Part shown: in pieces, positions 80-12,529 of the stretch
How positions within the stretch are numbered: the stretch's first letter is position 1
Layout of the letters: every line of letters starts with the position of its first letter
Assembly: GCF_024449025.1 (NCBI RefSeq)
Contig: NZ_JAHLKM010000028.1
Span: 1-33,525, forward strand
Origin: Natronomonas aquatica
GTDB taxonomy: Archaea; Halobacteriota; Halobacteria; Halobacteriales; Haloarculaceae
Direction of reading: 5' to 3'
Length of the DNA stretch: 33,525 bases
Notes under the pieces: generated by a model
Seen by the model: only the letters and a program-made list of their open reading frames with translations
Database searches by the model: none
What the model was told of the DNA's origin: nothing
Translations under genes and position numbers: made by a program

Positions 80-1345
80 ATGTCCACGCAGGTACACGCA
101 TCCATCGACGAAGCGACGGTCAGACAGATCTCCGAAGAGCTCGACGAGCCCGAGTGGCTCCTCGAGACGCGTCTCGATGCGCTTTCGGCGCTCGACGACA
201 TCGAGTTCCCGGACGTCATCCAGACGCCCGGCCGGACGTGGACGAACCTCGAGGAACTCGACTACGAGTCGCTGGTCGACCCGCTCGAGGCCGCCGAAGA
301 GAAAGACCAGGTCGGCCCCGAAGAGATCGACGTGCTGCCGTTCGCCGAGGCGATCGAGACCCACGGCGATCTCCTCGAGGAGTACTTCGGGAGCATCGTC
401 GACCCCGAGTCGAACTACCTGACGGCGCTGTCGACGGCGCTGTTTACGACCGGAACGGTCGTCTACGTCCCCGAGGGCGTCGACGCCGAGGACGTGACGA
501 TCCGGACGACGATGAACTCCCGGTCGCTTTTCAACTACACGCTCGTCGTCGCCGAGGAATCGTCGTCGGTGACGATCCTCGAACGTCAAGAGAGCGGTGA
601 GGAGAGCGTTGCGCCGGAGGCGCAACGAAACGAAGGCGGTGAAACCGCCGGAGTCGACGGGAACCGCTATTACAGCGGGATCACGGAAATCGCCGCCCAC
701 GAGAACAGCTACGTCCAGTTCGGGAACCTCCAGGATCTCGACGAGACGACCTACGTCTACTCGCTGCGTGAGGCCGACATCGACACCTACGCGACGGTCA
801 ACTGGATCGAGTGCAACGTCGGTTCGCATCTGAGCAAGGCGTCCGTCGAGAGCCACCTCAACGGCGACTCCTCGGAGTCGAAGATCGTCGGCGCCTTCTA
901 CGGCCACAACGACCAGCACTTCGACATCGACGCGCGGGTGTGGCACAACGCCGAGCACACGACGGCGGATCTGGTCACGCGCGGCGTCATCGACGACGTG
1001 GCCCGGTCGGTCTACGAGGGCGTCCAGCACGTCGGCTCGGAGGCGTGGGACACCAGTTCCTACCAGCGTGAGAACACGCTGATGCTTTCGGACGAGAGCG
1101 AGGCCGACGCCTCGCCGAAGCTCATCATCAACAACCACGACACCGAGGCCTCCCACAGCGCGACCGTCGGGCAGGTCTCGGCGACGGACATGTTCTATAT
1201 GACCTCCCGGGGGCTCAGCGACCGGCTGGCACGGAACATGCTCGTGGAGGGCTTTTACGTCCCGGTCTTCGAGGAGATCGAGGTCGAAGAGCTCCGTGAA
1301 GACCTCCGAAGTCGGATCCAGGATCGGCTGCAGGCCCGCGAGTAA
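80..1345 (+). CDS. sufD: SufD, Fe-S cluster assembly protein
   Basis: This 421-residue protein is a SufB/SufD-family subunit of the SufBC2D scaffold that builds Fe-S clusters, with ATP supplied by SufC. The C-terminal half carries the family's beta-helix core and signature stretches: SKIVGAFYGHNDQHFD near residue 265, then SSYQRENTLMLSDESEADASPKL and NNHDTEASHSATVGQ near 325-360, with the conserved His and Glu residues. The ATG at 80 follows the sufB stop by one base, so translation is probably coupled. Residues about 172-190 (bases 598-655) look like an insertion: two perfect DNA hairpins encode a polar stretch between LERQESG and VDGNRYYS that I would not expect in SufD. The frame is kept, so the gene is probably functional. 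Confidence 0.95.
   Translation: MSTQVHASIDEATVRQISEELDEPEWLLETRLDALSALDDIEFPDVIQTPGRTWTNLEELDYESLVDPLEAAEEKDQVGPEEIDVLPFAEAIETHGDLLEEYFGSIVDPESNYLTALSTALFTTGTVVYVPEGVDAEDVTIRTTMNSRSLFNYTLVVAEESSSVTILERQESGEESVAPEAQRNEGGETAGVDGNRYYSGITEIAAHENSYVQFGNLQDLDETTYVYSLREADIDTYATVNWIECNVGSHLSKASVESHLNGDSSESKIVGAFYGHNDQHFDIDARVWHNAEHTTADLVTRGVIDDVARSVYEGVQHVGSEAWDTSSYQRENTLMLSDESEADASPKLIINNHDTEASHSATVGQVSATDMFYMTSRGLSDRLARNMLVEGFYVPVFEEIEVEELREDLRSRIQDRLQARE
598..655 (+). repeat. In-frame palindromic insert in sufD
   Basis: Two perfect inverted repeats stand side by side. One has a 9-bp stem (607-615 with 619-627) around GGA. The other has a 6-bp stem (635-640 with 644-649) around GAA. Both have a three-base spacer and both are read through in frame. 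The encoded residues (roughly ESVAPEAQRNEGGETAG) sit in what looks like a surface loop. The same arm-3-arm design recurs at 4795-4839 and 6197-6304. Confidence 0.75.
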
Positions 1346-1386
1346 CGCGCGTCGCTTTTCGATTCGATTTCTTTTCGGCGACGGTG

Positions 1387-1686
1387 CTAACGTGCATAAC
1401 GGTCGATCTCTCGGTCGGTCTCCCGGAGGGTGAACGGGCCGATAGAGTGTGCTCGCTCGGTCACCGTCGCAACGGGAAGCACGTCGAAAGCCGTATCGAC
1501 CGAGTCGGAGTCCAAGAGCGCGACCCCGGCCGGACCCACGAGCGAGACACCGACGAGCGCAACAATAATCAGCCCGACGATACCGGTCGTCATGTATCGA
1601 CGGTCGGTGTCCAACAGGGGGTACAGCACGAACGTGTTCAGGGCCGAGCGCTCGCGCATCCTGTTTGCCGACTCGTCGTCCGACAT
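1387..1686 (-). CDS. Small membrane protein of unknown function
   Basis: A 99-residue protein starting MSDDESANRMRERSALN. One clear hydrophobic segment, rich in Gly, Val and Ile (about residues 33-60, TTGIVGLIIVALVGVSLVG), suggests a single membrane helix; the rest is charged and soluble. The frame is open nine codons further upstream, but the ATG at 1686 is preferred because a T-rich TATA-like element (about 1709-1716 on this strand) lies the right distance for a leaderless transcript. It converges on sufD, with 41 bases between the two stop codons. I do not recognise the family; no function is claimed. Confidence 0.7.
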   Translation of the reverse strand: MSDDESANRMRERSALNTFVLYPLLDTDRRYMTTGIVGLIIVALVGVSLVGPAGVALLDSDSVDTAFDVLPVATVTERAHSIGPFTLRETDREIDRYAR

Positions 1687-1804
1687 ACGTACCGACCCGT
1701 CGGGAGCGGACAAAAACGGCGCGGCGAGGGGAACTTCTTAAGTCGCCACGGTGCCGAGCCGTGAGTATGCCCGACGTACGATCCGCCGACCAAGGGGTGG
1801 GGCG

Positions 1805-2290
1805 ATGAGTCTCACACAGCCGGTCGCGTCGGACCACCAGCTCGCGCGATTGCTCCAGATAGGGATGGTGCTCGAGGAGGTCGTCGAGGCCCGCGCCCAC
1901 AACCACTACGAGGCGCTCGGCGACGACGAACTCGACGCCGAGATCGTCGCCCTGCTGGAGGACGCCGCCGAAGAGTCCGGCGAACACCGCCGACGGCTCG
2001 AGGCGCTCGTCGACGAACTCGACGCCGATCCGATCGCCTACGAGGAGATCGAACGGCTCGTCTCGGCCCGTTACGAATCGGACACGGACTTCGACGGCGT
2101 GCTGTACGATCAGCTGTGTAACGAAGAAACGGCCTACAAGTTCTACGACGACCTGATCGCCGCGATCGAGGGATCGGACATCGAGTTCACGATCGGTCGT
2201 GATCGCCTGCTCGCCGTCCTCGAGGAGATCAGAGCCGAAGAGCGCGAGGGCGTCGAGGAAGTCACCGAACTCATGGAGCGACGACGATGA
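1805..2290 (+). CDS. Ferritin-like domain protein
   Basis: A 161-residue, almost wholly helical acidic protein. Helices carry carboxylate/His patterns typical of the ferritin-like four-helix bundle: EEVVEARAHNHYEAL near residue 22, EESGEHRRRLEAL near 58, CNEETAYKFYDDL near 105, and EEIRAEEREGVEEV near 140. The E-x2-H spacing suggests a bound di-iron or manganese site. An upstream GTG at 1751 is in frame, but the TATA-like CTTCTTAAG at about 1733-1741 would place transcription start near 1763, so the ATG at 1805 is preferred. Its stop overlaps the start of the DtxR-type repressor, which suggests a metal-storage or metal-oxidation role under that repressor's control. Confidence 0.75.
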   Translation: MSLTQPVASDHQLARLLQIGMVLEEVVEARAHNHYEALGDDELDAEIVALLEDAAEESGEHRRRLEALVDELDADPIAYEEIERLVSARYESDTDFDGVLYDQLCNEETAYKFYDDLIAAIEGSDIEFTIGRDRLLAVLEEIRAEEREGVEEVTELMERRR

Positions 2291-2724
2291 ACACGCAGGC
2301 ACAATACCTCAAAACGATCTACCTCGTCCAGGAGGAAGCCGACGGCCCCGCCTCGACCGGCGCGATCGCCGACCGGGTCGGCGTCAGCCCGGCCAGCGCG
2401 AACGAGATGATCGGCAAACTCGAGGAGCGCGGGCTCGCCGACCACGAAAAATACAAGGGTGTTTCGCTGACCGACGAGGGGATCAGTCGGGCCCGTGACG
2501 CCCTGCAGACCTACTGTATCATCGAACGGTTCCTCTGGGAGGTGCTCGAAGTCGAGGACTTCCAGGCGGAGGCCCGCCAGCTCGAGAGCGTCATCGACGA
2601 GACGGTCGCCGAACGCCTCGATACGATCATCGACCGGCGGGACTGCTGTCCGGACTGTTTCGATGCCGAGACCGACGCCTGCGAGTTGCTCGAACTCGAG
2701 GTCCCCTCCGAACCGGCCGACTGA
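2287..2724 (+). CDS. sirR: DtxR/SirR-family metal-dependent transcriptional regulator
   Basis: A 145-residue protein with the DtxR/MntR/IdeR architecture. An N-terminal winged helix (residues 1-62) carries the recognition-helix motif VGVSPASANEMIGKLEERGL, followed by the metal-binding dimerisation domain (about 65-115, with YCIIERFLWEVLEVEDFQAEARQLE). The short Cys-rich tail (CCPDCFDAETDAC) is a feature of haloarchaeal members and could form a small metal knuckle. ATG overlaps the TGA of the ferritin-like gene by four bases (ATGA), so the two are translationally coupled. The likely role is Fe(II)- or Mn(II)-dependent repression of metal uptake and storage genes, possibly including its own operon. 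Which metal it senses cannot be read from the sequence. Confidence 0.9.
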   Translation: MNTQAQYLKTIYLVQEEADGPASTGAIADRVGVSPASANEMIGKLEERGLADHEKYKGVSLTDEGISRARDALQTYCIIERFLWEVLEVEDFQAEARQLESVIDETVAERLDTIIDRRDCCPDCFDAETDACELLELEVPSEPAD

Positions 2725-2788
2725 CTCCGGGAAGGCGATCCGAACGAAGGGTAACGCTATTGTGCGGGAAGGGCATACCGATCGATGC

Positions 2789-2861
2789 AGCCCCGTGGTG
2801 TAGCGGCCAATCATAGCGGCCTTTGGAGCCGTTGACGGCGGTTCGAATCCGCCCGGGGCTA
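2789..2861 (+). tRNA. tRNA-Gln (anticodon TTG)
   Basis: The cloverleaf can be drawn completely. The 7-bp acceptor stem pairs 2789-2795 with 2854-2860. The anticodon stem pairs 2816-2820 with 2828-2832 (one G-U) around loop CTTTGGA, giving anticodon TTG at 2823-2825. The T arm pairs 2837-2841 with 2849-2853 around TTCGAAT. The D stem is short, with a G-U and a mismatch, as often seen in haloarchaeal tRNAs. Base 2861 is the discriminator A; CCA is not encoded and there is no intron. Accessory DNA begins right after the 3' end. Confidence 0.95.
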
Positions 2862-2891
2862 TCTATCCTCCATTTGTATTACGTAAGCGAG

Positions 2892-3020
2892 CAAGACCGG
2901 GACGACATCATGGCGTACGAGGTGCTCGCCGACCAACGATACCTCGCCGACGACCGGTTAACCCTCACGGACGTGCGGATGTTTCCGACGCTGGTTCGCT
3001 TCGATGAGACCGTGAGCCCC
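2892..3020 (+). pseudogene. Fragment of a xi-class glutathione transferase (glutathionyl-hydroquinone reductase-like)
   Basis: Translation in the frame of 2910 gives YEVLADQRYLADDRLTLTDV followed by RMFPTLVRFDE. This is the conserved C-terminal helical segment of xi-class GSTs (YqjG/ECM4 family), where the consensus reads like LADQRYLxGDRLTEADxRLFxTLVRFD. Nothing recognisable as the N-terminal thioredoxin fold or the active-site Cys precedes it, because the frame runs straight into the tRNA. Downstream of the match the translation becomes unrelated. It is therefore a decayed gene fragment, about 40 residues of an expected 320 or so. Its position just 3' of the tRNA suggests it was cut off by integration or deletion at the tRNA. 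Confidence 0.7.
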
Positions 3021-3165
3021 ACCGTGCAGGGCTCACAACACGAACCCTACGAGGCCGAGATCGAGAGCGGTGGTAACGAACCCGAAAACGTCGACGCCTC
3101 CTGCACGCGTCATACGGCTGGGTGGGTACTACAGGTATATCGGCGAGATGTGTTCCTTCTTTCTA

Positions 3166-3852
3166 TCAGAGTCTGTCGAATTGGGTTCGCAAGAACTGAA
3201 TCAGGTCGTCGATGTTGTCCTCTGGGAGTTCCTTCTGTTGGAACACGCCCCTGAACGAGTCCGCGAACTCGTCGCTTTCGAGTTCCGCCAGCACGCGTTC
3301 GATTTGCTCGGCCAACTGGTTCGGATTCCCGCGATGGATGTGTTGTTCGATGCTGTCGAGATCTGCCTCGGCGCCGACGATCACCAGATCCCGTGCATCC
3401 GCGAGCCGACCGCTGTGGAGTTTGAGCGCGAACAGCAGTTCCGGCTCGGGAATCCGAGCCATCATGCCCTCCGCTACTTCGAGAGACTCGACGACGCTGT
3501 GTTCGTGGAGACAGCGGTACGACCATTCCGCATCAGTCTGCCGACAGCGAAGTGCGCCGACGAGTGCGTCAAATTCGACCGCGTAATCGCCAACCGGTTT
3601 TTCGTACCGGACGATTCGCCCCTCGTACACGTTTGCCACGTCGTTATCGAACGCTTTGCTGTACCCCAACTCGATGAGGAGGGCGTCGTACGCATCGCGT
3701 TCTGTTTCAGGGATCACCATATCGACATCAGTAGTGAACCGGGTCTGAAACGCCGAGATTGCCCATCCTCCGACGAGTACGTACGACAGTTCTTCGTCCT
3801 GTACGGCGCGGTGTGCGTCGATGAGTTCGGCTTGACGCTCTTGGAGGCTCAT
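3166..3852 (-). CDS. Nucleotidyltransferase, candidate AbiEii-like/DUF6036-type toxin
   Basis: A 228-residue protein with the minimal nucleotidyltransferase signature near its N terminus: VLVGGWAIS (residues about 26-34), then RFTTDVDMVI (about 38-47), supplying the GG and paired Asp residues of the pol-beta-type active site. A possible third acidic residue is in AVEFDAL near 92. The C-terminal part is helical and charged. It starts 10 bases after the stop of the HTH gene and forms a two-gene operon with it. That order (HTH protein first, nucleotidyltransferase second) is the arrangement of AbiE-type toxin-antitoxin systems, in which the transferase is the toxin. The assignment to toxin is by family and context. 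A simple metabolic or tRNA-modifying nucleotidyltransferase is the alternative. Confidence 0.7.
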   Translation of the reverse strand: MSLQERQAELIDAHRAVQDEELSYVLVGGWAISAFQTRFTTDVDMVIPETERDAYDALLIELGYSKAFDNDVANVYEGRIVRYEKPVGDYAVEFDALVGALRCRQTDAEWSYRCLHEHSVVESLEVAEGMMARIPEPELLFALKLHSGRLADARDLVIVGAEADLDSIEQHIHRGNPNQLAEQIERVLAELESDEFADSFRGVFQQKELPEDNIDDLIQFLRTQFDRL

Positions 3853-3862
3853 TATGGGTCGT

Positions 3863-4546
3863 TCAGTCGGCAGTCATCTGGTTATGATGACTCGCGTCGA
3901 TGTCGACGTCGTGTTCGTCGGCGATCATCTCCAACGCCGGTTCGTACGCCGGCCGGGTCTCCATCATCTGACTGACCGCGTCGTCCAACGGAATCACGGG
4001 ATTGCCGTCGACCCACTCGACGTCGATGTCCTTTGCCTGCGGGAACAAGACGTAGTGGACGCTCCCGTCAACATCGGCCGCGTCCGGGCGTTCTCCCAAA
4101 GTAGTGTCGACCCCGAACCGCTCGACGAACTCGATCCACCGATCGACGTCGCGCTCGTGAACCTCGATAAACACGGGGTAGTCGTCGTGGCCTCTGGCGA
4201 TCTGGAACCCCCCGTGCGTCCAGACGTAGGCGGCATCGATCTCCGTGTAGGCGAACTCCATCCCGGCGAAGTGGAGGATCACGTACGCGTCCTCCTGTGA
4301 AACTTCGTCGCGGGTGTACAACGTTCCCATCATCTCCTCGTAGCGCCGACGCATCTCGTAGTCACGGATTCGAACTCCGCTATCTGTATAACAGATAATT
4401 TCTTGGTCGTCCAATCGATTGATCCAGTCGTAGACCCACGAATACGATGTACCGATCTTATTCGAGATTCGGTTGATAGAATCCCCACACTGTGCCGACA
4501 AGACGATTTTCGCAGCGGTGGGATTCATGAAATCGGTTGTCGTCAT
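3863..4546 (-). CDS. HTH-domain protein, candidate antitoxin/regulator of the nucleotidyltransferase
   Basis: A 227-residue protein. Residues about 8-60 form a winged-helix/MarR-like DNA-binding region (AAKIVLSAQCGDSINRISNK, then SYSWVYDWINRLDDQEII). Residues 65-227 form an uncharacterised alpha/beta domain with aromatic-rich strands (AYVILHFAGMEFAYTEIDAAYV, YPVFIEVHERDVDRWIEFVE). Upstream and probably co-transcribed with the nucleotidyltransferase, 10 bases apart. The architecture (N-terminal wHTH plus a larger C-terminal domain, first gene) parallels AbiEi antitoxins, though I cannot show homology to AbiEi by eye. AT-rich stretches upstream of the start (about 4556-4575) could hold the promoter and an autoregulatory operator. 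Confidence 0.6.
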   Translation of the reverse strand: MTTTDFMNPTAAKIVLSAQCGDSINRISNKIGTSYSWVYDWINRLDDQEIICYTDSGVRIRDYEMRRRYEEMMGTLYTRDEVSQEDAYVILHFAGMEFAYTEIDAAYVWTHGGFQIARGHDDYPVFIEVHERDVDRWIEFVERFGVDTTLGERPDAADVDGSVHYVLFPQAKDIDVEWVDGNPVIPLDDAVSQMMETRPAYEPALEMIADEHDVDIDASHHNQMTAD

Positions 4547-4618
4547 CGTCCATCTAGTTATCTTGAACGAGATGATAACTGATGAATCTATCGGCGGATC
4601 CTGAATATAGAAAGAAAC

Positions 4619-4848
4619 GGTTTACAGGCGGTCGAGGCGAATGCCCCGATGCTTGCTCGTGGTCTTCAGGAGTTCGGTCTGGGAGGGGCCGAAGTGACGC
4701 CCGTGGGGACTGCGACCGCTGTGGGAACCGACGAAGACCGCCCTCCGTCGGTTCCTGCAAGTCGCGTCATCGAAACGGAAAGCCTCGGGGTCGTACGGAA
4801 ATCTTTGATTTCCGTGATGACGAGACGCTCTGCGTCTCGAACCACTTG
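4619..4848 (+). pseudogene. C-terminal remnant of an IS1341-type tnpB
   Basis: In the frame of 4649 the translation reads VEANAPMLARGLQEFGLG, then AEVTPVGTATAVGTD, then ASRVIETESLG. This follows the C terminus of haloarchaeal TnpB (IS891/IS1136/IS1341 type), where a D-x-N-A-A RuvC motif is followed by a GL-x-E-x-G helix and a tail like VTPVETAxPxDTxxxSAKRVVETGSP. Everything N-terminal to the last RuvC motif is missing, and the catalytic motif is altered. The tail is broken after ESLG by the hairpin cluster at 4784-4856. No tnpA or left end is visible, so it is a dead fragment. The rest of 4547-4919 holds only this remnant and the promoter region of the next gene. Confidence 0.65.
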
Positions 4849-4856
4849 ACCCCGAG
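4784..4856 (+). repeat. T-shaped nest of three perfect inverted repeats
   Basis: The outer arms of 9 bp (4784-4792 with 4848-4856) enclose two hairpins with three-base loops: 9-bp arms 4795-4803/4807-4815 around TTT, and 8-bp arms 4821-4828/4832-4839 around TCT. All three stems are perfect. As single-stranded DNA or RNA this would fold into a three-way junction. It interrupts the TnpB tail, and the inner hairpins have the same design as those in sufD and the histidine kinase. It could be a small palindromic insertion unit or an RNA-level terminator-like structure. Confidence 0.8.
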
Positions 4857-4883
4857 ACGGTTCACGCGTTTCACCGAGCCACA

Positions 4884-4893
4884 GGTATATACC
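4884..4893 (+). promoter_or_regulatory. TATA box of the histidine kinase gene
   Basis: GGTATATACC is centred about 31 bases before the ATG at 4920. This is close to the archaeal TATA-to-start distance and predicts a leader of only a few bases. Confidence 0.5.
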
Positions 4894-4919
4894 GATCCGG
4901 GCGAAAAACGGGTCATTAC

Positions 4920-6599
4920 ATGGCGTCGAACGACGACAGCCAGGGGCCTCCGGAGATCCCATCGGAACTCCCGTTCGAGCTGCTCCTGGCCGAGGCCCCG
5001 TTCGGCGTGCTCGTCATCGATTCGACCAGTACGATACGGTACACGAACGAGGCACTGACTGACACGCTCGGGTACGAGCCCGCGGCGCTCGTCGGCGAGT
5101 CGCTGACGCGGCTGATCCCCAGCCGGCTGCAGTCCTCCCATCTCGAGGCGTTCGAGGCGTACTTGGAGAGCGGTCAGCGCCACCTCGATTGGGATCAAAT
5201 CGAGCTGTCGGCGGTCCACAGCGCGGGCCACGAGGTCCCGGTCGTCATCGCCATCCAGGAGACGCCGACCGAAGACAAAGACCTCTTTACCGGTATCGTC
5301 GTCGACGTCTCCGAGCAGTCCCGTCTCGAACGGGAACTCGAAGCGAACGTCGACGTTCTGCACGAACTCTACGTGATCGCCTCCGATTCGACGCTGTCGT
5401 TCGAACAGCGCCGACAGAGCGTCCTCGAACTCGGCTGTCGCTACCTAGATCTCCCCTACGGGTTCGTCACCGAGATCACGTCCGCCGAGCAGACGATCGT
5501 CGACGCCGTCGGCGACCACGAACTCCTCCAGTCCGGCGAGACGTGCCCGATCGAGGAATCGTACTGCCGGCGGACGATCGAGGGGGACGGGTTCCTCGCG
5601 GTCGCAAACGCCGTCGAGGAGGGCTGGGAGGAGGATCGGGCCTACGAGCGGTTCGGGCTGGGAAGCTATATCGGCGGCAAGCTCGTCGTCGACGGGGGAC
5701 TCTTCGGGACGCTCTGTTTCGCCTCGCACGACCCCCGCGGTCGGCCGTTCTCCGACAGCGAACGGACGTTCGTCGAACTGGCGAGCCGGTGGCTGGGGTA
5801 CGAGATTCAGCAGCGCCGCCAGCGTCGGCAGCTCGAACGGCAGAACGACCGGCTCGATCGGTTCGCGAGCCGGGCCTCCCACGACCTCCGGAACCCGCTT
5901 TCGGCCGCGAAGGGACGGCTCGAACTCGCCCGTGAGCGACACGAGGGCGACGAGGACATCGAGGCGGCCCTCGAGGCGATCGCCGACGCCGACGCCCGCA
6001 TCGACGAGACCCTCGAGTTCGCCCGGCTCGGCGGGGCCGTCACCGATCCACAGCCGGTCGCCCTCGCCGAGGCCGCCCGGGTCGCGTGGGAGCGGGCCGG
6101 CGAGGCGACGGCGACGATGACCGTCGAGGACGACATCGAGATCCGCGGGGACCGCGATCGGATCGAACGGCTCCTCGAGAACCTGTTTCGGAACAGCGTG
6201 GAGCATGGCTCCACGAGCAGTCGGACACAGTCCGACGACAGCGTCGAACACGGTTCGACGAGCAATCGGCCGCAGGCCGATGACAGCGTGGAGCACGGCT
6301 CCACAGGCAGTCCGACGGAGTCCGACGACGCCGTCGAACACGCCGGAACCGGTGTCACTGTCCGGCTCGGCGGGCTTTCGGACGGCACCGGCTTCTACGT
6401 CGCCGACGACGGCCCCGGCGTCCCCGAAGACGACCGCGAGACGGTTCTCGGATCCGGCTACACGACGAGCGAGGAGGGCAGCGGCTTCGGGCTGGCGATC
6501 GTCACGGAGATCGCGGCCGCCCATGGGTGGGACGTCCGGGTCATCGAATCCGCCGCGGGCGGCGCGCGTTTCGAGATCGTCGACGTGACCGTGTCGTAA
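4920..6599 (+). CDS. PAS-GAF sensor histidine kinase with tandem-repeat insert
   Basis: A 559-residue soluble histidine kinase with no membrane segment, so it senses a cytoplasmic signal. The PAS domain is at about 20-140 (FGVLVIDSTSTIRYTNEA), and the GAF domain at about 150-298 (YGFVTEI, CPIEESYCRRTIEGD, YIGGKLVVDGGLFGTLCF). The HisKA helix follows with the phosphoacceptor in ASHDLRNPL near residue 321. The HATPase_c domain has its N box ENLFRNSVEHG near 420, G1 VADDGPGVPE and G2 GSGFGLAIV. Between the N box and the next strand (VTVRLGG) lie about 45 extra residues made of a repeated unit DD[SA]VEHGST-x-x-P-x-[SA], a copy-like expansion of the N-box end. No receiver gene is adjacent. The insert lies in or next to the ATP lid region and may alter kinase activity. 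Confidence 0.92.
   Translation: MASNDDSQGPPEIPSELPFELLLAEAPFGVLVIDSTSTIRYTNEALTDTLGYEPAALVGESLTRLIPSRLQSSHLEAFEAYLESGQRHLDWDQIELSAVHSAGHEVPVVIAIQETPTEDKDLFTGIVVDVSEQSRLERELEANVDVLHELYVIASDSTLSFEQRRQSVLELGCRYLDLPYGFVTEITSAEQTIVDAVGDHELLQSGETCPIEESYCRRTIEGDGFLAVANAVEEGWEEDRAYERFGLGSYIGGKLVVDGGLFGTLCFASHDPRGRPFSDSERTFVELASRWLGYEIQQRRQRRQLERQNDRLDRFASRASHDLRNPLSAAKGRLELARERHEGDEDIEAALEAIADADARIDETLEFARLGGAVTDPQPVALAEAARVAWERAGEATATMTVEDDIEIRGDRDRIERLLENLFRNSVEHGSTSSRTQSDDSVEHGSTSNRPQADDSVEHGSTGSPTESDDAVEHAGTGVTVRLGGLSDGTGFYVADDGPGVPEDDRETVLGSGYTTSEEGSGFGLAIVTEIAAAHGWDVRVIESAAGGARFEIVDVTVS
6197..6342 (+). repeat. Tandem repeat of palindromic units inside the kinase N-box region
   Basis: About three copies of a roughly 48-bp unit, each containing two inverted repeats with three-base spacers. 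Perfect arms are at 6197-6204/6208-6215, 6220-6226/6230-6236, 6242-6249/6253-6260, 6265-6271/6275-6281 and 6288-6294/6298-6304. A sixth, at about 6311-6328, is imperfect. The arms differ in sequence between copies while staying self-complementary, so pairing rather than sequence is conserved. Each unit keeps the reading frame and re-encodes SVEHGST or a near version. Confidence 0.88.
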
Positions 6600-8196: not shown

Positions 8197-8220
8197 CTTG
8201 TGGGCGGCATTACGCGAGTA

Positions 8221-10065
8221 ATGGCTGATTCCACCCACGTCACTCGGCTCTTCGGGGGACCGGGGAGCGGGAAGACGACGGCGTTACTCGACCGCGTCGA
8301 CGGGATGCTCGAGGACGGCGTCGAGATGCGTGACATCCTCGTCGTCTCCTACACCCGTGCGGCCGCCGCCGAGGTGCGCGAACGGCTGGCCGAACGGCTC
8401 GATCGCTCGCCCAAGTCGCTCCGGGGCAACGTCTGTACGATGCACGCGAAGGCCTACGAACTCCTGAACCTCTCGCGGGGCGACGTCGTCGGCGAGAACC
8501 ACAAGGAGACGTTCTGTGAGGAGTACGGCCTCGAATTCGAGGACGAGAACAAATCCGCCCGGCGACGGTCGGCCCGGTCGACGACGCTCGGCAACAAGAT
8601 CATCGCCACCTCCCAGTGGCTCCAGCGGACCGAACGCGACGTCGCCGACTGGTACGACGTCCCCTTCAAGTGGAACGAAGAGGAGGTCCGGCTCCCGCCG
8701 GAGATCGACGACCGCGCCCAGACCGGCAACAAGTACACGCCGACGTGGTCCTCCGACGACGACCGCGTCGACATCCCCGAGGCGATCCGCGCGTGGCGGA
8801 GCTACAAGGGCGAGGAGGGGATCGTCGGCTTCGCCGACATGCTCGAACGCGTCCAGCAGCGCTCTCTGGTCCCCAGCGTCGATCACCTCGTCATCGACGA
8901 GTTTCAGGACATCACGACCCTACAGTACGGGGTCTACGAGGAGTGGAAACCCCACGTCGAGTCGGTTCTCATCGCCGGCGACGACGATCAGGTCGTCTAC
9001 GCCTGGCAGGGCGCCGACCCGAACCTCCTTTTGGACGAGGGCGTCGACGACGACGTCGTGTTGCCCAACAGCTACCGGCTCCCCTCCCGGATCCTGAACG
9101 TCGTCAACACTCAGATCAGCCACATCGAGAAACGGCAGGACAAGGACCTCAAACCGCGCAAGCAGGGCGGCTCCGTCGAGGCCGTCCGGTCGCCGTCGAT
9201 GATCGATCTCGTCCGGAACGTTCGGATGACGATCGACGAGGACGAGGAGGGCAGCGTCATGTGTCTGTTCCGGGCCCGCTATCAGATGTTCCAGTTCATG
9301 GACGAGTTCATCGGCGAGGGGATCCCCTTCACCGCGCTGACCGACCAGCGGATGTGGACCGACCGGCTCCGGGGGTACGTCGAGGGGATCGAGGCGCTGT
9401 CCGACGGGGAGCCGATCGACGGCCTGCAGGCCAGACGGCTCGGGGAGATGCTCGCCGACAGCGCCTTCGGCACCGGCGAGCGGGACGACTATTTCGAGGC
9501 CCTGGAGGAACTGGAGGATGCGGAGGGCGTCGAGGACCTCACCGACCTGGAGGTCGATCCCGCGTTCGTCGACGACCACGCGCCCTTCGCCCCGGGGCCG
9601 GCCTCGGCGGCCGACATGCTCACCCGGGTTTCGAACTTCCAGGAGCGGTCGGTCGACGCCTATTTCAGCGGCGATTACCGCGGCGCCGATCCCGAGCGCG
9701 TCCGGCTGGGTACGATCCACTCCGCGAAGGGCCGGGAGGCCGATCACGTCTTCGTCGCGACCGACCTCACGGAGAAGGTCGTCGAGCAGATGGCCGCCTC
9801 CGTCGAGGATCCCGAGGCCGTCCCCGGCGTCACCGAGTTCACGAAGCGCTCGGATCCGGTGCCGACGATGACCGACAACGAACGGCGCGTGTTCTACGTC
9901 GGGATGTCCCGCGCCCGCGAACGGCTCGTGTTGCTTGAGGGCCTCGTCGACGGCGCGCCGACGCTGCCGATCGACGTGCTGTTGTACAACGAACTCGTCG
10001 ACAAGTCCCTGGAGGACGTCCTCGCCGAAGCCCAGGAACACGGCGAGGAACTCAAAGCGGACTGA
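8221..10065 (+). CDS. UvrD/Rep-family superfamily 1 DNA helicase
   Basis: A 614-residue ATP-dependent 3'-5' helicase of the UvrD/Rep/PcrA class. Motifs occur in order: Walker A GGPGSGKTT (residues about 12-20), Ia VVSYTRAAAAEVRERL, Walker B VIDEFQD (about 224-230), III GDDDQVVYAWQGA, IV SYRLPSRI, V RLGTIHSAKGREADHVF (about 500), and VI VFYVGMSRARERLVL (about 560). It is shorter than bacterial UvrD (about 720), lacking the long C-terminal tail, as is common in haloarchaea. Likely acts in nucleotide excision repair, replication restart or recombination control. The ATG at 8221 is 27 bases after a clear TATA box (leaderless). Stands alone; the next gene is 110 bases on. Confidence 0.95.
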   Translation: MADSTHVTRLFGGPGSGKTTALLDRVDGMLEDGVEMRDILVVSYTRAAAAEVRERLAERLDRSPKSLRGNVCTMHAKAYELLNLSRGDVVGENHKETFCEEYGLEFEDENKSARRRSARSTTLGNKIIATSQWLQRTERDVADWYDVPFKWNEEEVRLPPEIDDRAQTGNKYTPTWSSDDDRVDIPEAIRAWRSYKGEEGIVGFADMLERVQQRSLVPSVDHLVIDEFQDITTLQYGVYEEWKPHVESVLIAGDDDQVVYAWQGADPNLLLDEGVDDDVVLPNSYRLPSRILNVVNTQISHIEKRQDKDLKPRKQGGSVEAVRSPSMIDLVRNVRMTIDEDEEGSVMCLFRARYQMFQFMDEFIGEGIPFTALTDQRMWTDRLRGYVEGIEALSDGEPIDGLQARRLGEMLADSAFGTGERDDYFEALEELEDAEGVEDLTDLEVDPAFVDDHAPFAPGPASAADMLTRVSNFQERSVDAYFSGDYRGADPERVRLGTIHSAKGREADHVFVATDLTEKVVEQMAASVEDPEAVPGVTEFTKRSDPVPTMTDNERRVFYVGMSRARERLVLLEGLVDGAPTLPIDVLLYNELVDKSLEDVLAEAQEHGEELKAD

Positions 10066-11938: not shown

Positions 11939-12529
11939 ATGTTCACCGGGATCGTCGAGACGACCGGCGAGATCGTCGCTGTCGAGGACACGGCGGACGG
12001 ACGGCGGCTCCGCGTGGCTGCCCCCTTCGCCGACGAACTCGAGGGCGGCCAGAGCGTCGCAGTAAGCGGGGCGTGTCTCACCGTCGAGGCGTTCGACGAC
12101 GAGAGCTTCGAGCTGTTCCTCTCGACGGAGACGCTCGAACGGACGTACCTCGATAGCGTCGGGGTCGGCGACCGTGTCAACCTCGAACGCGCGCTGCCGG
12201 CCGACGGCCGATTCGACGGCCACTTCGTCCAGGGCCACGTCGACGGTGTCGCCGAGGTGACCGAGATCGAGCGGGTCGGCGAGGACTGGACCTTCGGCTT
12301 CTCGCTGCCGGCCGACCTCCGGCGCTACGTTGTCGGGAAGGGCTCGATCGCGATCGACGGGATCTCCCTGACCGTCGCCGACCTCCGGGAAGGGTCGTTC
12401 ACCGTCGCGATCATCCCCACGACTTATGAGTTGACGACGCTCTCCGAGAAGTCGGTCGGCGATCCGGTCCACGTCGAGGTCGACGTGGTGGCAAAGTATG
12501 TCGAGCGGTTGACCGAAGGGTATCGTTGA
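11939..12529 (+). CDS. ribE: Riboflavin synthase, bacterial (alpha-chain) type
   Basis: A 196-residue protein beginning MFTGIVETTGEI, the hallmark start of bacterial/eukaryotic riboflavin synthase (EC 2.5.1.9), which dismutates two 6,7-dimethyl-8-ribityllumazines to riboflavin in a homotrimer. Two homologous lumazine-binding barrels are visible: the first about 1-88 with SVAVSGACLTVE, the second about 90-187 with FVQGHVDG and SIAIDGISLTVAD. Most archaea use an unrelated small synthase (RibC type, related to lumazine synthase); the bacterial form is usual in haloarchaea and points to an old transfer from bacteria. I see no FMN riboswitch in the 126 bases upstream. The next gene starts 18 bases on. 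Confidence 0.95.
   Translation: MFTGIVETTGEIVAVEDTADGRRLRVAAPFADELEGGQSVAVSGACLTVEAFDDESFELFLSTETLERTYLDSVGVGDRVNLERALPADGRFDGHFVQGHVDGVAEVTEIERVGEDWTFGFSLPADLRRYVVGKGSIAIDGISLTVADLREGSFTVAIIPTTYELTTLSEKSVGDPVHVEVDVVAKYVERLTEGYR

Follow-up and report, generated by a model that had tools for sequence, protein, structure and literature searches.

The window considered here is a stretch of 33,525 nucleotides from a 3.2-Mb draft haloarchaeal genome (contig C32) of Natronomonas aquatica; the closest named relatives of its SufD protein belong to Natronomonas. Near its start lies the gene sufD, whose coding sequence contains two adjacent hairpins, and further groups of hairpins occur at the end of a tnpB remnant and within a sensor histidine kinase gene. 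An initial annotation had recorded nine perfect inverted repeats at these three loci, each with exactly three bases between the arms, and a script recovered all nine at the recorded coordinates, each of them perfect, with arms of 9, 6, 9, 8, 8, 7, 8, 7 and 7 bases in order of position. The sufD segment is, with good probability, a copy of a dispersed, transposase-less mobile element of the class Halobacteria that inserts in frame. We use the working name HPE-1 for this element, defined as a 9-3-9 hairpin (arm, spacer, arm), the linker AAACGRA, and the hairpin GGCGGT-GAA-ACCGCC. The sufD locus comprises the following features.

80..1345, + strand: sufD (SufBD core; Pfam PF01458)
605..652, + strand: HPE-1 inserted in sufD, 48 bp, 16 codons, SVAPEAQRNEGGETAG; absent from congeners, recurring in ~25 other genes
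607..627, unstranded: HPE-1 hairpin 1, arms CGTTGCGCC/GGCGCAACG, loop GGA, 9-3-9; variable arms, Watson-Crick covariation
635..649, unstranded: HPE-1 hairpin 2, GGCGGT-GAA-ACCGCC, 6-3-6; conserved, with one of the six pairs varying in a compensated manner

The insert is organized as AG-CGTTGCGCC-GGA-GGCGCAACG-AAACGAA-GGCGGT-GAA-ACCGCC-GGA, and as single-stranded DNA it gives a stable fold with exactly two hairpins. The SufD loop running from LERQ to RYY measures 48 nt in congeners and 96 nt in the window; the excess is exactly 48 bp, which bears out the annotated preservation of the reading frame. The segment is not universal, as most SufD orthologues are devoid of it: among 95 parsed orthologue sequences (a few genomes being counted twice), the loop is short in 80 and long in 15, and the long loops represent several insert types located at nearly one shared position. 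The insert is exactly 48 bp long, with edges ambiguous by 1–2 bases, no visible inverted terminal repeats, and no clear duplication.

A second HPE-1 was found by chance, in frame, in the Dna2-like helicase gene of a genome from another family (G293), where the linker and hairpin 2 are as in sufD and the hairpin-1 arms are different yet complementary. The pattern of linker plus hairpin 2 matched 87 places in 68 of 292 haloarchaeal genomes, while the reversed control gave one match; outside Halobacteria, it was met in 1 of 124 genomes of the phylum, with one mismatch. Chance matches (L273, L280, and L281/L282, the last two being topoisomerase VI-like sequence on the opposite strand) were discarded. 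Host genes, named by Pfam or NCBIfam profile or by clear flanks, number about 25 and are unrelated to one another; among them are sufD, topA, the Dna2-like helicase, NAD kinase, M20 peptidase, lysK, metG (at two sites), ileS, valS, nadB, cbiC, cbiE, HhH-GPD glycosylase, hutU, a MetE-like synthase, a GH68 enzyme, a GatD/asparaginase relative, acyl-CoA ligases, argB/lysZ, nucS, a GlcD-like dehydrogenase, moeA, ribE, and a UvrD-like helicase. Hairpin 1 is recognizable in 67 copies, 66 of which share one frame and orientation (in open reading frames of at least 200 codons). Four of the five alternative frames are stop-free in all 49 full-length copies, so the bias is not due to stop codons and therefore reflects either selection acting on the peptide or insertion that is itself directed.

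Filled and empty alleles of topA are exactly 48 bp apart, as in sufD. Among the g8 genomes, topA is filled in G044, G045, and G098 and empty in G026, G047, and G051, and its state also differs between G110 and G109 of g23. Two further genes of the window show, by empty/filled comparison, the empty state of sites that are occupied elsewhere.

8200..10065, + strand: UvrD-like helicase, empty HPE-1 site (filled in G244, L333)
11939..12529, + strand: ribE, empty HPE-1 site (filled in G077, L337)

The topA genes of two congeners, L361 (G019) and L368 (G003), carry different, non-palindromic inserts at the same site, which are perhaps decayed elements.

The arms of hairpin 1 change in concert. Of the pair cells in an alignment of 31 copies, 98.7% hold standard pairs. 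This percentage is inflated by the choice of copies with at least 8 of 9 pairs, a choice that affects neither the diversity of pair types nor the lack of G.U. The alignment has 79 double changes (shuffles, 20) and a covariation score of 0.456 (shuffles, 0.105; slid registers, at most 0.13), and hairpin 1 shows zero one-sided (G.U) changes. In a looser set with at least 6 of 9 pairs, 513 cells divide into 490 Watson-Crick, 2 G.T, 4 A.C, and 17 other combinations. Orthologous sites with 10–20% flank divergence contain 29 compensated and 11 one-sided positions, the pairs not being independent. The encoded peptides shift with the arms (SEATESPR, GASSETTR, SATTESSR) while complementarity is retained. 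Inversion of the loop on identical arms was seen three times in HPE-1 (GAA/TTC in one orthologue pair, GGA/TCC twice) and once in the kinase set described below (TTC/GAA). Because G.U pairs are lacking and the arms vary yet stay Watson-Crick complementary, the sequences suggest a constraint acting on DNA rather than on RNA structure. The annotated view that self-complementarity, not a motif, is what the palindromes share describes the freely varying hairpin-1 arms well and fails for the linker and hairpin 2, which form a conserved motif.

A second family, HPE-2 (~54 bp, two spacer-3 hairpins), is present in 84 of the 292 genomes, with 0 control matches. It occupies sufD, topA, a TnpB tail, and other open reading frames, and 18 of 23 analysed copies are in one frame. 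In topA of G139 and G087 (L355, L357), HPE-2 splits the loop of HPE-1 hairpin 2, and it is likewise nested in HPE-1 at L372 in G200; such nesting is direct evidence that HPE-2 moved. Its second hairpin is made of two stems separated by conserved tandem GA/GA mismatches, and either stem shows one or more compensated changes; double changes in the family number 21 versus 4.7, with 0 one-sided changes. The copy at L378 (G277) sits in a TnpB reading frame, within its C-terminal tail (KRVVEAGSPTLSERSEAQSASDHSSGQSPRED). The copies L383, L384, and L397 are preceded by SEARSAS-type peptides, which suggests insertion into an earlier HPE-2-like copy. Neither viruses nor plasmids qualified as the source of these families. 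The HPE-1 core occurs in just one viral contig and the HPE-2 core in none, and the plasmid matches comprise hutU, which is an ordinary host gene, from Halorubrum salinarum and Halolamina, plus one partial Streptomyces match.

The third group of palindromes lies in the kinase gene, where the repeat is termed HPE-K.

4920..6599, + strand: PAS-GAF-HisKA-HATPase sensor histidine kinase (Pfam)
6210..6344, + strand: HPE-K, three 45-bp two-hairpin units lying between N-box and following beta strand, 45 codons; empty paralogue; predicted local distance difference test score (pLDDT) <50
6197..6215, unstranded: HPE-K hairpin CGTGGAGC-ATG-GCTCCACG; left arm formed by native N-box codons
6220..6236, unstranded: HPE-K hairpin GTCGGAC-ACA-GTCCGAC
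6242..6260, unstranded: HPE-K hairpin CGTCGAAC-ACG-GTTCGACG
6265..6281, unstranded: HPE-K hairpin ATCGGCC-GCA-GGCCGAT
6288..6304, unstranded: HPE-K hairpin GTGGAGC-ACG-GCTCCAC

Here, too, the frame is kept, as had been annotated: the segment measures 183 nt versus 48 nt in a paralogue of the same genome, and the excess of 135 nt equals exactly 3 × 45. Such repeats are found in 5 of ~40 HATPase genes of this genome, the window kinase included, and the motif GTNGARCAYGGNTCNAC is present in 199 of the 292 genomes. Among the 150 matches listed, synonymous third positions pair in register (V3:S3 in 127 of 150 versus 70 expected, E3:G3 in 108 of 150 versus 65), off-register third positions show no pairing excess, and A.C mismatches are commoner than G.T. 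In the second hairpin of each unit, both nucleotides and amino acids vary while complementarity is kept. The SufD structure model is poor (mean pLDDT 48.8), and therefore only the kinase model was used; it is confident around the repeat and has pLDDT <50 inside it (residues 133–176 of the modelled stretch), so the insert is predicted to be disordered. Neighbouring units tend to alternate arms, GTGGAAC.. followed by GTCGAGC.. (G250:C16:71183-71340; also G284, G112, G192), as if identical neighbours were avoided.

The tnpB end includes the remaining two hairpins.

4775..4865, + strand: 3'-end segment of an IS605/IS1341-type tnpB element, beside a tnpB remnant; two further genome copies
4795..4815, unstranded: hairpin in the tnpB 3' end; compensated in copy L088, ACGGAAGAC-GAA-GTCTTCCGT
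4821..4839, unstranded: second hairpin in the tnpB 3' end

The 3' end of tnpB-type elements carries the guide-RNA scaffold. The 91-bp stretch 4775–4865 has two more copies in the genome, 98% and 89% identical, on the 3' side of tnpB open reading frames, and within this genome hairpins of this type recur only in the 3' regions of tnpB genes or remnants; they are best read as the transposon's own 3' end. By eye, this end has the two-hairpin plan of HPE-1 and not its sequence. The three loci, which had been annotated as one class, must therefore be separated: distinct sequences and separate confinement speak against a single class, with the tnpB hairpins restricted as described and the kinase repeat, which has its own sequence, regarded as locus-restricted and not HPE-1 because all copies read so far are at the N-box site. 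Between a tRNA gene and the tnpB remnant, two adjoining genes occupy positions 3166–4546 on the minus strand, one of which matches nothing in Pfam while the other matches a winged-helix domain weakly; the pair might be toxin-antitoxin-like.

The window contains 27 spacer-3 palindromes with arms of at least 6, versus 12.7 in dinucleotide shuffles, and other spacers are likewise above their own shuffles; with arms of at least 8, there are seven at spacer 3 and 0–3 at each remaining spacer within 0–8. In 393 kb of the window's genome, single spacer-3 palindromes with arms of at least 7 are not above spacers 2, 4, and 5 (73 versus 60, 72, and 64), which leaves no room for a general arm-3-arm class. 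The enrichment of spacer 3 that had been anticipated is absent for single palindromes and present for tandem runs, defined as same-spacer neighbours with arms of at least 6 and a gap of at most 12. Spacer-3 tandem neighbours number 12 versus ~1.8 expected, every other spacer giving 0–4, in a count biased by including the window, where the palindromes were first noticed. Over 400 kb of G293, 13 spacer-3 tandem pairs were counted versus 2.2 expected, with 0–3 at spacers 4–12; this sample consists of 20 stretches, three of them picked for holding kinases, and one of these three yields 5 of the 13 pairs. G293 also holds three exact 24-bp direct repeats at L142:12681-12744, each with TGCGAC-AGA-GTCGCA and unrelated in sequence to HPE-1, as well as pairs or triplets of GTA-loop hairpins outside obvious genes (L136:18987-19026 and L128:6295-6366), one group of which sits just past an apparent tRNA gene. 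The GTA-loop hairpins may be non-coding relatives of the elements, or else their donors.

HPE-1 is thus dispersed over ~25 unrelated genes, exists as clean 48-bp empty and filled alleles, keeps one frame and orientation, harbours nested insertions, and has arms that covary by Watson-Crick pairing with no one-sided variants. In the model we favour, HPE-1, with its two tandem hairpins in 48 bp, would leave the frame intact on insertion, and persistence would be limited to copies that, read in the sense frame, supply a permissive loop with a polar 16-residue peptide of the SVAPEAQRNEGGETAG type. HPE-2, built on the same plan, inserts into hairpin loops, those of HPE-1 among them. Movement may involve an intermediate of folded single-stranded or hairpin DNA on which an enzyme acts in trans, a candidate being a Y1 transposase of the IS200/IS605 type. 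The arms could be kept perfect, and rewritten in step, by intra-hairpin template switching during replication, by the structural demand of mobility, or by both. The kinase repeat, of the same two-hairpin plan, would spread only among histidine-kinase paralogues through tandem amplification and recombination.

Several points weigh against this account. We infer the mobilizing step, as neither a transposase nor an active copy came to light and a target-site duplication could not be established. A genome mostly holds just 1–5 copies, which is below the level of a vigorous transposon, and since the search pattern fixed both the linker and hairpin 2, their conservation was partly selected by the search. 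Some arms are decaying, with G.G and other mismatches, so that perfection is not absolute. Cases of loop inversion are few, and at orthologous sites recurrent insertion and in-place rewriting of the arms are not yet separable.

Could palindromes of this kind arise with no mobility at all? Polymerase template switching (quasi-palindrome correction) would make local palindromes in tolerant loops without any shared element. This process is known to homogenize arms and invert spacers (PMC8604942, PMC8794818), and it predicts the perfect Watson-Crick arms, double changes, lack of one-sided variants, and loop inversions on identical arms that HPE-1 displays. It is nevertheless a process and not an element: the linker and hairpin 2 are identical across ~25 unrelated genes, and palindromes formed de novo would not share 25 bp, nor would they be enriched in tandem at spacer 3 only or give copies nested in loops. 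As a sole cause, it is ruled out by the shared sequence and we rate it as improbable, while it may well act as upkeep after insertion. Strong covariation, a stable fold, and a location in housekeeping mRNAs could instead point to conserved mRNA hairpins under selection for expression control. A structured cis-regulatory RNA would be expected to covary with G.U pairs, but hairpin 1 has none of these in the alignments, the looser set has them in 2 of 513 cells, and at the kinase sites they are rarer than A.C; the inserts are absent from most orthologues, and an Rfam search of the first 7.5 kb of the window found no match except a tRNA. This explanation, turned down for lack of G.U, is very improbable.

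The single frame, the polar peptide, and the low pLDDT (<50) of the kinase insertion loop would also suit a feature selected at the protein level, in which a polar or disordered peptide useful to halophiles spread by recombination between genes and palindromy is a by-product of codon choice. We consider this hardly credible, as synonymous third positions covary in register and peptide residues change freely with the arms while complementarity stays. A narrower form of the favoured model, in which the HPEs are terminal-only derivatives of IS605-type elements moved by Y1 transposases, comparable to palindrome-associated transposable elements (PATEs), is conceivable but rather doubtful. It accords with two hairpins that have no visible inverted terminal repeats, with the two-hairpin plan of the tnpB end in the window, with HPE-2 in a TnpB tail (L378), and with the apparent mobility of 52-bp terminal-only PATEs in Haloquadratum, where SMR-A elements insert in PATE palindromes (PMC3119063). 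On the other hand, HPE linkers and arms share no sequence with tnpB ends (by inspection of the ends in this genome), PATEs have not been described as in-frame coding inserts, and no target tetranucleotide is established.

Setting that narrower form aside, dispersed in-frame mobile elements of Halobacteria can be compared with several known systems. PATEs and SMR-A are their nearest described relatives by lineage (PMC3119063): both are haloarchaeal, transposase-free, and palindrome-based, the terminal-only PATEs are similar in size, and SMR-A, like HPE-2, inserts into palindromes of other elements. SMR-A is, however, ~110 bp long with inverted terminal repeats, PATE ends resemble those of IS605, and neither is described as an in-frame insert (PMC3119063); kinship with PATE/IS605 was not borne out by the tnpB 3' ends of this genome, which by eye share the plan and not the sequence. 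Miniature inverted-repeat transposable elements differ in that they have a target duplication and ends that are mutual inverted repeats, whereas HPE-1 has two internal hairpins and ends unrelated by inversion, and repetitive extragenic palindromic (REP/RAYT) elements are extragenic, whereas 66 of 67 HPE-1 copies lie within open reading frames. Palindromic amphipathic repeat coding elements (PARCELs) resemble HPEs as palindromic coding repeats and, in their tandem units, the kinase repeat (PMC2996958), but they encode a 25-residue amphipathic domain (DUF285) in surface proteins, while the kinase unit has 15 polar residues and no such Pfam match; their authors reported none in the archaeal genomes then available (PMC2996958). 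Methanocaldococcus jannaschii and Wolbachia also have palindromic coding repeats, as cited in PMC2996958; these are archaeal and bacterial inserts with coding potential from other lineages. In-frame palindromic elements of haloarchaea were not described in the literature searched, which included few subscription journals, so that novelty is unproven.

The closest functional parallel is provided by Rickettsia palindromic elements, which are dispersed palindromic DNA inserted in frame in unrelated genes, including metabolic ones, and add a peptide to the product (PMC10969869). The initial annotation had pointed to them, and for the sufD segment the likeness proved apt, given ~25 host genes, 66 of 67 copies in one frame, clean empty sites, and nested insertions. 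Rickettsia elements are ~100–150 bp long and belong to an obligate intracellular bacterium, whereas HPE-1 has 48 bp and HPE-2 ~54 bp; two tandem spacer-3 hairpins, occurrence in Halobacteria, covarying arms, and nested copies also set HPEs apart. By its GC-rich sequence and taxonomic range, HPE-1 is unlikely to belong to the Rickettsia sequence family. Knowledge of in-frame palindromic selfish DNA has come mostly from Rickettsia; in a 2024 review, the same mechanism elsewhere was considered no more than conceivable (PMC10969869). At least two such families are now seen in an archaeal class of free-living organisms, in genes for tRNA synthetases, topoisomerase, Fe-S assembly, and cofactors, and they account for abrupt polar insertions of 15–18 residues that differ among orthologous haloarchaeal proteins. 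Because single genera hold both filled and empty alleles, HPEs offer a clean natural test of whether palindromes persist through template switching, selection, or re-insertion. Tentatively, and as something possible rather than probable, they may represent a new class of minimal selfish DNA of ~50 bp, whose two hairpins would move as folded DNA into hairpin loops and permissive protein loops and whose arms would be self-templating, one being copied from the other so that arm sequence drifts while complementarity and the open frame are kept. If so, they would keep supplying essential proteins with disordered insertions.

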